A stretch of 35,903 nt of DNA, from the NCBI GenBank assembly GCA_028709585.1, contig JAQVWS010000006.1, forward strand, positions 1 through 35,903, given 5' to 3'. Below are positions 23,441 through 25,689 of this stretch, piece after piece. A program made the translations under genes and the position numbers. The stretch's first letter is position 1; each line of letters opens with the position of its first letter. The notes below the pieces were generated by a model that saw only the letters and a program-made list of their open reading frames with translations, ran no database searches and was not told the origin of the DNA. The DNA is from Syntrophomonas sp. (GTDB taxonomy: Bacteria > Bacillota > Syntrophomonadia > Syntrophomonadales > Syntrophomonadaceae).

Positions 23441-23905
23441 TTAGTTTTTATTTATAGCATCCGCAACCTGTTCACTTACTTTTGATGCAGCTGATGATAT
23501 ATTATCCAAGGTTTTATTGATTTTCATATTATCACAACCTGGCTTTTCCAAGCGGATTTTATGGTTCGTAAATAGAGCAGCTAACAAACCTATGATTGTT
23601 AAAGGCAGTGCTATAATCGTTGCCAGGATAACAACAGTCAGAGATAGATCTATAATGGGTTTGCCATTTTTGCTAATTATAAGTCTGGTAGTATTGCATG
23701 TCCTTACCAGCTTTTTAATACTTACCCACAAACCTGACTGAGCAGTAGAATCATGAAGAGGTGCTTTAATCTTATTCTGTTTTTCCAAATAAATCAGCGC
23801 TTCCACAATATCATTATTACATTTTTCCAGTGTTTCCTTGGCTTCCTCATAGGAAACATGAGCTCTTTCTCTAATACTCTCAATCAGTTCTAAACTAACG
23901 GCCAT
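23441..23905 (-). CDS. DUF4342 protein with UBA-like N-terminus
   Basis: This 154-residue protein begins with a UBA-like three-helix segment, VSYEEAKETLEKCNNDIVEALIYLE (about residues 17-41). The middle part fits DUF4342: an amphipathic region (about 60-75), a strand with TRLIISKNGKPIIDL, and a conserved hydrophobic segment of about 30 residues (LSLTVVILATIIALPL onward) that may insert into the membrane. The C-terminus is helical and charged. AGGGGG lies about 7 nt before the ATG. It stands 95 nt ahead of the ArlR-like regulator, on the same strand. The function is unknown to me, but its position next to a two-component system makes a membrane-stress role possible. Confidence 0.75.
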   Translation of the reverse strand: MAVSLELIESIRERAHVSYEEAKETLEKCNNDIVEALIYLEKQNKIKAPLHDSTAQSGLWVSIKKLVRTCNTTRLIISKNGKPIIDLSLTVVILATIIALPLTIIGLLAALFTNHKIRLEKPGCDNMKINKTLDNISSAASKVSEQVADAINKN

Positions 23906-23989: not shown

Positions 23990-24017
23990 AAAAAGGGTGG
24001 AATCAAAAATTCCACCC
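23990..24017 (-). terminator. Rho-independent terminator of the HesB-like gene
   Basis: A perfect 9-bp stem (GGGTGGAAT 23995-24003 with ATTCCACCC 24009-24017) and 5-nt loop are followed, on the minus strand, by a run of five T. It lies 42 nt beyond the TAG/TAA end of the HesB-like gene and shows that the gene is a single-gene transcript. Confidence 0.85.
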
Positions 24018-24059: not shown

Positions 24060-24389
24060 CTAACTGCATGAATTGCAGGAAGAGCATCCTGCATCACTGG
24101 CTGATTCTTTCTCAGGAATAATATTAAAATAGGTTTGTCCTCCTTGCTGAATAGAACTAATTGTAAATCCTTGGCTCATTTCCAGAAGGTTATTATCAAT
24201 TACAAAATGGAGTCCGTCGTGTTCTTCGACTTTATCATTTTTAGCTGGTTCATCCAGAACCAGATTATATGACATCCCTCCTCAGCCAATACTGGCGTCG
24301 ATTCTTAAATGCTGAGATTCTTTATTCATCTTTTTCAAGATTTCTTTTATATCTTGAATGGACTCAGCTGATAGTCTTACCATTTCCAT
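24060..24389 (-). CDS. HesB-like selenoprotein; in-frame UGA at 24282-24284 read as selenocysteine
   Basis: The full reading frame is 109 residues if the UGA at codon 36 is decoded as selenocysteine. Before it is MEMVRLSAESIQDIK... with a helix and LRIDASIG; after it is GGMSYNLVLDEP, the core of HesB/IscA-like A-type Fe-S carrier proteins. In relatives the sequence is GCGG, so UGA replaces the first conserved, ligand-binding cysteine. The tail is GCSSCNSCS. A 7-bp stem with UGGAU loop follows 18 nt after the UGA (SECIS candidate). Starting at the later ATG (24275) is unlikely: GGAGGG touches it and half the domain would be lost. Start: ATG at 24389 with AAAGGAG at 11 nt; a second in-frame ATG at 24383 is possible. 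Known family: HesB-like selenoproteins. The alternative is a nonsense mutation. Confidence 0.85.
24245..24284 (-). promoter_or_regulatory. UGA codon and bacterial SECIS hairpin of the HesB-like gene
   Basis: The UGA (24284 to 24282) is followed after 18 nt by CTGGTTC (24263 to 24257), loop TGGAT (24256 to 24252) and GAACCAG (24251 to 24245), a perfect 7-bp stem. Bacterial SECIS elements are inside the coding region just after UGA, with a guanine-containing small apical loop contacted by SelB; this one fits in position, stem length and GG loop. Confidence 0.75.
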
Positions 24390-24424
24390 AATAAAGTCAC
24401 TCTCCTTTCTAAAATTCAATTTTT

Positions 24425-24466: not shown

Positions 24467-24496
24467 AACATACCCCTTGAGGGTATTTTATGTCAA
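24467..24496 (-). promoter_or_regulatory. Promoter with CsoR/CstR-like operator, HesB-like gene
   Basis: TTGACA (24496 to 24491) and TATGTT (24472 to 24467) are separated by 18 nt on the minus strand. The palindrome ATACCC-CTTGA-GGGTAT (24470-24486) fills the spacer and overlaps the -10. TACCC...GGGTA operators are typical of CsoR-family repressors, which sense copper (CsoR) or persulfides (CstR). A repressor gene is not in the window. Confidence 0.6.
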
Positions 24497-24624: not shown

Positions 24625-25689
24625 TTATTTCCAGTTAAACCCTTGCCTGCTTACAATTATCTTATGATTATCGCCTTCCACCTGGTAGCCCATATTATTG
24701 AGTATTGCTCTGAGGGATAGCAGGGGAATAGTTCCTTTGTTTAAAACAATAGGCTGATTCAGATTTACCCGTTTGCCATCAACCCTTATATATTTTAAAC
24801 CGGGAGCAATTTCTATATATTTAGCTAATTGAGGAGGTTTTAAATCTGTTGCGGTCCAGGCCTCAAATAAACACCACATGAATTGACTCTTTATAGTTAT
24901 CCATTCGTAGGGCAGATAAGCATAGCCATTGTCGCCCCAGTTTGTACCCCAGGAATTTCTCAAGATGAAGCAGCCTTTATTCGGCAGATCACCCACTATA
25001 CCCACGGCATGCCCGCCTCTGACGGCGCCATCAGGAAGGGGCAAAAAGTAATTTTTATCTGGTTCGAAATTATCGCAAACCAGCAAAGCTATCATAAAAG
25101 GGCCTTCTCTCTTTAAGGCCTGGCGCATGGCATCTAGGACATGATCTCGCTGCAGATCGTAAGATGAGCAAAGTTGGGCGTAAGTCTTAATACGAAATAT
25201 AGTGCCGGCATTGAGGGCATTATCTGAAATAGACGGAACTTGAGGTATAGGCAAATTTGTCAGAGTAGAGTAAGGCATGATAGTTTCAGGACAAACGCCA
25301 TATTTTTGTAATAGTTGCAGGGCTGTTTTGGGATGGGTGCCTTCTTCAGAGGGCAAGCCATCGTTTTGTTTGCACAGGCTGTATAGGAAAGCTGCCGATA
25401 AGCCTTCGTTGGGATAATCACCTTGTTTGATTTCCTGATAAGCCTTAATTGTCCACACGGAGGCACAAGCCACACAACTCCCCCGCTGTTCCTGGTCGAA
25501 AACCACAGGCAGATTCGGTCTGTAATCAATGGAAACGGGAGGCTCTTGCGCAAAAGAGCCCATAAGTTTGGTATATATATAATCCCTGGGGTCATAGGGA
25601 GACGGAATATAATTTAGAGGGTGGTTATTATATTCTTTGGGGAGATTCTCCATAAACCTGCGCAGTTGATAAATAATTTCAAATGACAT
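24625..25689 (-). CDS. Papain-type (C1A) cysteine peptidase with C-terminal copper-amine-oxidase-like domain
   Basis: This 354-residue protein has three parts. Residues about 25-60 act as a pro-like lead (YIPSPYDPRDYIYT). The C1A catalytic domain has Q66 and catalytic C72 (QEQRGSCVACAS, where Val replaces the usual Trp), the catalytic His in GGHAVGIVG, and the Asn in RNSWGTNWGDNGYAYLPY. From about residue 300 is a short copper-amine-oxidase N-like domain (VDGKRVNLNQP, then PLLSLRAILNNMGYQV), a wall- or surface-associated module in Clostridia. No signal peptide is visible, so location is uncertain. AAGGAGG lies about 7 nt before the ATG. It is divergent to phoP and has its own terminator. Target unknown. 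Confidence 0.85.
   Translation of the reverse strand: MSFEIIYQLRRFMENLPKEYNNHPLNYIPSPYDPRDYIYTKLMGSFAQEPPVSIDYRPNLPVVFDQEQRGSCVACASVWTIKAYQEIKQGDYPNEGLSAAFLYSLCKQNDGLPSEEGTHPKTALQLLQKYGVCPETIMPYSTLTNLPIPQVPSISDNALNAGTIFRIKTYAQLCSSYDLQRDHVLDAMRQALKREGPFMIALLVCDNFEPDKNYFLPLPDGAVRGGHAVGIVGDLPNKGCFILRNSWGTNWGDNGYAYLPYEWITIKSQFMWCLFEAWTATDLKPPQLAKYIEIAPGLKYIRVDGKRVNLNQPIVLNKGTIPLLSLRAILNNMGYQVEGDNHKIIVSRQGFNWK

Follow-up and report, generated by a model that had tools for sequence, protein, structure and literature searches.

For the HesB-like selenoproteins, the motif UxGP has been listed as a family feature (PMC13188914), and their function has been called unclear in recent papers (PMC13188914, PMC11097638). 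The type-2 operator of CsoR regulators has been defined as an inverted repeat, TAC-N9-GTA, that contains two G/C tracts (PMC3902906). In this work, a selenoprotein gene preceded by a site of this type was analysed in a 35,903-nucleotide stretch of DNA from a Syntrophomonas sp. (contig JAQVWS010000006.1; hereafter the window), whose source genome is 2.28 Mb in size and listed as 100% complete. The gene, the conservation of its UGA codon, the covariation of the SECIS-like hairpin, the selenocysteine (Sec) machinery, the predicted fold, and the operator together with its association were computed directly. The family of the selenoprotein is known; what is new is a member of a divergent branch and the link to the promoter operator. 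A literature search found no paper naming HesB and CsoR together, which is no proof of novelty.

The HesB-like (A-type Fe-S carrier) selenoprotein gene at 24060..24389 on the minus strand was recognized by translation, family models, fold, and presence in 26 genomes of the order. Translation of 24389..24060 (minus strand) with TGA read as U gave a product of 109 residues followed by a TAG stop, MEMVRLSAESIQDIKEILKKMNKESQHLRIDASIG-U-GGMSYNLVLDEPAKNDKVEEHDGLHFVIDNNLLEMSQGFTISSIQQGGQTYFNIIPEKESASDAGCSSCNSCS. The single in-frame UGA is codon 36 (24282..24284, minus strand), in the context LRIDASIG-U-GGMSYNLVLDEP. Translation and orthologue alignment showed that this codon takes the place of the family's first conserved Cys, and U36 matched the first conserved Cys in IscA/SufA, as a preliminary description of this DNA had claimed. 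The same description had stated that ordinary gene calling would yield only a 71-residue fragment, and the ORF list indeed showed, under the standard code, just one ORF of 71 aa (24060..24275), which is the 3′ part of the gene. Annotation pipelines break or miss such genes. A Shine-Dalgarno-like sequence, AGAAAGGAGA, was read 5′ of the ATG at 24401..24410 (minus strand), and terminator scoring revealed an intrinsic-terminator-like hairpin 3′ of the gene at 23995..24017 (minus strand). The neighbouring genes encode a DUF4342/UBA-like protein (23441-23905, minus strand) and a papain-family (C1) peptidase (24625-25689, minus strand), and the local context gave no evident link of either to the selenoprotein.

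Because Pfam gave no match to the read-through product at 0.001, NCBIfam and fold comparison were used. Alignment of the 109-residue product with HesB/IscA and selenoprotein models, a check proposed in the preliminary description, showed that the two best NCBIfam models were the HesB/IscA selenoprotein pair IscA_HesB_Se (NF038090; E 1.5e-15) and HesB_rel_seleno (TIGR01911; 1.6e-14), followed by TIGR00049 (1.3e-11). Both top models scored below the curated NCBI cut-offs (57.3 vs 85 bits and 54.2 vs 66.35 bits, respectively). However, a typical GUGGP paralogue (P0002) and other Sec-HesB proteins likewise fell below these cut-offs, indicating that the cut-offs do not rule out family membership. 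A structure model, for which a 25-sequence alignment was the input, had a mean pLDDT of 86 and the IscA fold, which together with the NCBIfam E-values identifies a HesB/IscA domain. The top PDB match of the model was 1x0g, an IscA with [2Fe-2S] (E 4.5e-07), and SufA and ErpA-like proteins were also matched (fold matches 1x0g, 2d2a, and 1s98). In the comparison with Escherichia coli IscA (1s98), GCGGMSF was aligned to GCSGMAY, so that the UGA site corresponds to the first ligand Cys of IscA. By its predicted fold, the product is a putative A-type Fe-S carrier. The motif at the UGA is GUGGM instead of UxGP, and the branch carries M, A, V, S, T, or I after GUGG, suggesting that this is a divergent subfamily; a long stem (1.17) leads to the order-wide branch in the protein tree. 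Judged from its sequence, the gene is a member of the established HesB-like selenoprotein family, in a divergent branch where M or another residue than proline stands after GUGG and the tail is GGCxxCxxCG. Degenerate HesB-like paralogues with neither Cys nor Sec at the ligand position (IAARIDLDGDK and IVGSLGFGDIP; L050 and L051) also occur in the order and are not under the operator.

The gene was carried by 26 of the 63 genomes of the order, and TGA stood at the Sec codon in 26/26 gene copies covering that codon (one such copy per genome), which excludes chance. One copy ends at a contig end, a further contig of that genome (G051) holding a 3′ fragment only, and in G014 the end of the copy is damaged and followed by a second TGA. 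UGA was also found in relatives from other families of the phylum and in one relative in Candidatus Falkowbacteria. A protein-only contig scan gave two relatives; the whole-genome searches were far more sensitive. When the parts 3′ of the UGA were compared between the window gene and its nearest relative, dN was 0.07 and dS was 0.96, showing strong purifying selection.

A bSECIS-like hairpin of 19 nt (CUGGUU-CUGGAUG-AACCAG; 24245..24263, minus strand; CUGGUUCUGGAUGAACCAG) begins 18 nt 3′ of the UGA, as identified by covariation and RNAalifold. The results showed that, among 27 sequences, 96.9% of the cells were paired with 12 double-change cells, that the covariation score was reached by none of 500 shuffles, and that RNAalifold gave −10.7 kcal/mol for the hairpin. 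Taken as a single sequence, the hairpin was only mildly stabler than its shuffles (z −1.38). A covarying stem of 6-7 bp with GG in the loop, as looked for in a bacterial SECIS-like hairpin, was present. The hairpin region encodes LVLDEP, so its conservation is partly protein-driven, and the weight is carried by third-position and compensatory changes. A search of Rfam around the gene gave nothing at gathering level, bacterial SECIS elements varying too much for models of this type. This SECIS evidence and the promoter operator described below were absent from the preliminary description. A contig of a metagenome-assembled genome (L004), labelled Candidatus Falkowbacteria after the MAG, carries a Sec-HesB gene with a like SECIS hairpin, and no operator was found at this gene.

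The machinery for Sec insertion was searched for in the same genome. The results showed selA (570.6 bits; cut-off 267.9), selB (367.6 bits; cut-off 242.25), selC (70.2 bits; called by ARAGORN as tRNA-SeC with anticodon tca), and selD (362.5 bits). The genes selA and selB are adjacent on contig C121, which also holds selC, and selD lies on C142 (L012) with an in-frame UGA of its own in a GUAAK motif, which indicates independently that this organism reads UGA as Sec. Reading the UGA as a nonsense mutation in an ordinary Cys-type HesB gene, that is, as a pseudogene or a sequencing error, would fit the breakage of the gene by standard gene calling. This reading is contradicted by the presence of UGA in every covering copy as well as in other families and phyla, by the low dN/dS after the UGA, by the covariation of the hairpin, and by the complete set of selA, selB, tRNA-Sec, and selD. 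Taken together, these data exclude a nonsense mutation for practical purposes and leave it a negligible probability; UGA conservation and purifying selection in themselves rule out a pseudogene or a sequencing error. The preliminary description had predicted all four sel genes, had noted that conservation runs on past the stop, and had named a Cys codon in close strains, with other frame damage, as evidence against its reading; the close relatives carry UGA, not Cys, and every computable check that it proposed supports a HesB-like selenoprotein. The sequence evidence implies that the UGA almost certainly inserts selenocysteine, and Sec would be expected to be incorporated in vivo.

Upstream of the gene lies a sigma-70-like promoter, TTGACA-18-TATGTT (24467..24496, minus strand), which is weak evidence alone, as promoter matches were no more numerous than in shuffles. 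A pattern search based on the published definition (PMC3902906) revealed a putative operator, ATACCCTCAAGGGGTA (24471..24486, minus strand), with the type-2 CsoR-family signature TACC-N7-GGTA. The palindrome TACCC-N5-GGGTA (24485-24471) sits between the −35 and −10 elements, filling the spacer; nearly all of it lies there, and the −10 hexamer shares its first two bases with it. The site was present within 150 nt 5′ of the start codon in 22 of the 26 orthologues (shuffle mean 0.10); the figure for the other Sec-HesB genes, which come from many families of the phylum and include the genus paralogues, was 22 of 49 (shuffle mean 0.16). The distances from the start codon were 35-127 nt. Several further Sec-HesB genes have a 14-nt form of the site, and Sec-HesB genes of several families are without it. 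The reversed-motif control gave 0 matches upstream of Sec-HesB genes, and none of seven Cys-type homologues sampled in the phylum had the site; the background of 16/446 is inflated, many of those loci having been fetched because they have the site. On the protein tree, presence and absence of the site change at least eight times, indicating that the association does not go back to one inherited event but has been gained or lost repeatedly. A type-2 operator in the promoter is a feature expected of a CsoR/CstR-family regulon, and the conserved promoter site suggests that the gene is switched on via a thiol/sulfur-stress sensor of the CsoR family. A terminator-like hairpin was scored at the palindrome on the plus strand, but a terminator was judged unlikely, given the CsoR signature and the way the palindrome fills the −35/−10 spacer.

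The genome holds a sole CsoR-family gene (C103:3920-4156, minus strand; L053), which encodes an 88-aa protein with the RLRR motif and a Cys-His-Cys set and whose best PDB match is a CsoR. This csoR has a TACCTATCAGGGGTA site upstream and a thioredoxin gene (trxA) downstream, so that a CsoR-family gene with the same site before itself is present, as looked for in a member of the regulon. Such csoR-trxA pairs are found repeatedly in the order and also in further families of the phylum. In a hand count, the site was found shortly upstream of csoR in 35 of 39 such pairs. The site and CsoR go together in 20 of the 26 genomes with the hesB gene and are both missing from four, although these four belong to one genus (g7) and, as one lineage, amount to about one event; in two (G030 and G032) the site stands without a detected CsoR, and the converse was seen in no genome. 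An ordinary HesB-like selenoprotein whose palindrome has another function, serving a different regulator or as a terminator, would suit the plus-strand hairpin and the two genomes with the site but no CsoR match. This is improbable, because the TACC-N7-GGTA signature is kept across unrelated families at 35-127 nt before the start codon, because the site also precedes csoR itself, and because the g7 genomes without the site on the gene are also without any CsoR. In other genomes, CsoR-family genes were found close to Sec-HesB: in G373 such a gene is divergent from Sec-HesB, and in G108 (L285:3852-5019) a CstR-like regulator (Cys...Asn...Cys, no His), a CsoR-type site, Sec-HesB, and a rhodanese lie in a row.

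Across the 63 genomes, ATACCC-N4-GGGGTA gave about 90 strand matches, of which about 15 are expected by chance, as judged from about 15 for the reversed control. The exact sequence occurs three times in the source genome: before the present gene, before a second Sec-HesB gene, and before a 4Fe-4S/cytochrome b operon. The second Sec-HesB gene (C112:2814-3110; L059:1550-1846, plus strand) was missed by the first protein search; it is of the GUGGP type, has a TTG start and a UGA, and carries the operator 48 nt upstream. Genes of this type are present in relatives of the genus, G035 having two in tandem. A family profile found just two A-type proteins in the source genome, both Sec-HesB, although the same profile finds Cys carriers elsewhere. 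The 4Fe-4S/cytochrome b operon (C44; L158:1660-3355) encodes a TAT-signal 4Fe-4S protein and a cytochrome b561, and occurs behind the same operator in about nine genomes including this one. In the order, the site also precedes genes for a YeeE-type sulfur transporter, a thioredoxin-reductase-like protein, and a TehA-type exporter, as well as a small (seleno)protein with a CC/Se motif (CSU or CGU with UGA; L139:1539-1823, L140, and L149), which in two genomes has a DsbD/CcdA-type gene directly downstream of it. A CsoR-type site also lies 70-150 nt upstream of TldD in three genomes of three genera (L136, L144, and L147); TldD and the 4Fe-4S/cytochrome b genes are the operator-bearing genes not obviously related to sulfur.

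The explanation that we favour overall, and consider probable, is that of a Sec-HesB protein made by SelB recoding, repressed by a CsoR-family protein, and used in Fe-S/persulfide (or soft-metal) handling. SelB-type recoding at UGA 36 would be directed by the hairpin just downstream and would place Sec at the first metal- or cluster-ligand position, with the Cys residues of the C-terminal GCxxCxxC tail as further candidate ligands. Transcription is probably repressed by a CsoR-family protein that occupies the site between −35 and −10. The candidate repressor is the C103 CsoR encoded beside thioredoxin, the only family member in the genome, which would bind this site and probably dissociate in response to reactive sulfur species or thiol stress. 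Sec-HesB might then serve its handling role together with thioredoxin and sulfur-handling partners.

With thioredoxin as the partner and sulfur-handling genes among the targets, release by reactive sulfur or thiol stress is favoured, whereas the Cys-His-Cys set of the regulator speaks for release by Cu(I). Copper is the main alternative: with the same selenoprotein and operator, the csoR-trxA protein would be a true copper sensor, and Sec-HesB would replace or protect copper-sensitive A-type carriers or bind Cu(I). Besides the Cys-His-Cys set, the RLRR motif, and the PDB match to a CsoR, the operator itself is shaped like published copper CsoR sites (PMC3902906; PMC5947656). However, the copZ-linked CsoR clade of the order has no site before itself, and the site-bearing clade adjoins thioredoxin rather than copZ/copA. 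In addition, its first Cys is preceded by Asp/Glu instead of Tyr, and the other targets identified are thiol/sulfur genes, not copper efflux genes. On balance, a copper signal appears rather unlikely, and reactive sulfur or thiol stress is preferred as the signal. A broader proposal, for which we see about even chances, is that HesB-like selenoproteins act as the Sec-bearing effectors in a widespread regulon of Bacillota, with repressors of the CsoR/CstR family and with reactive sulfur or thiol stress as the inducer. The two A-type carrier genes detected in this organism both encode such selenoproteins.

With this gene, a known selenoprotein family gains a divergent branch. It is the link to the operator that deserves to be followed up, since it offers a way to test what HesB-like selenoproteins do. 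The presence of the operator before many Sec forms and none of the tested Cys forms names a regulator and, as candidate inducers, persulfide/polysulfide, disulfide stress, and Cu(I).

Compared with described systems, the product shares with the HesB-like selenoproteins (TIGR01911/NF038090; Zhang et al., 2006, PMC1794560; PMC13188914) the A-type carrier fold, a size near 100 aa, Sec in place of the first conserved Cys, a SECIS-like hairpin 3′ of the UGA, and anaerobic Sec-decoding hosts. It differs from them in the residue after GUGG, the GGCxxCxxCG end, the sub-cut-off scores, and the long stem of its branch. With the A-type carriers IscA, SufA, and ErpA it shares the fold and the first-ligand position, but it has Sec for Cys and a C-terminal CxxCxxC for CxC; the sampled Cys homologues, unlike this gene, have no operator. 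The site resembles the type-2 CsoR operators of Streptomyces lividans, Bacillus, and Staphylococcus (PMC3902906, PMC5947656) in the TAC-N9-GTA repeat, the two G/C tracts, and the placement in the core promoter, whereas it precedes a selenoprotein gene and csoR-trxA rather than copper-efflux genes. The CstR-cst operon of Staphylococcus aureus (PMC5480029) likewise places sulfur genes under a CsoR-family persulfide sensor, a likeness shared by the adjacent CstR-like, Sec-HesB, and rhodanese genes of G108; the regulator of the window genome, in contrast, keeps in ...NHARRC the Cu(I)-ligand His that CstR, with its two Cys, lacks.
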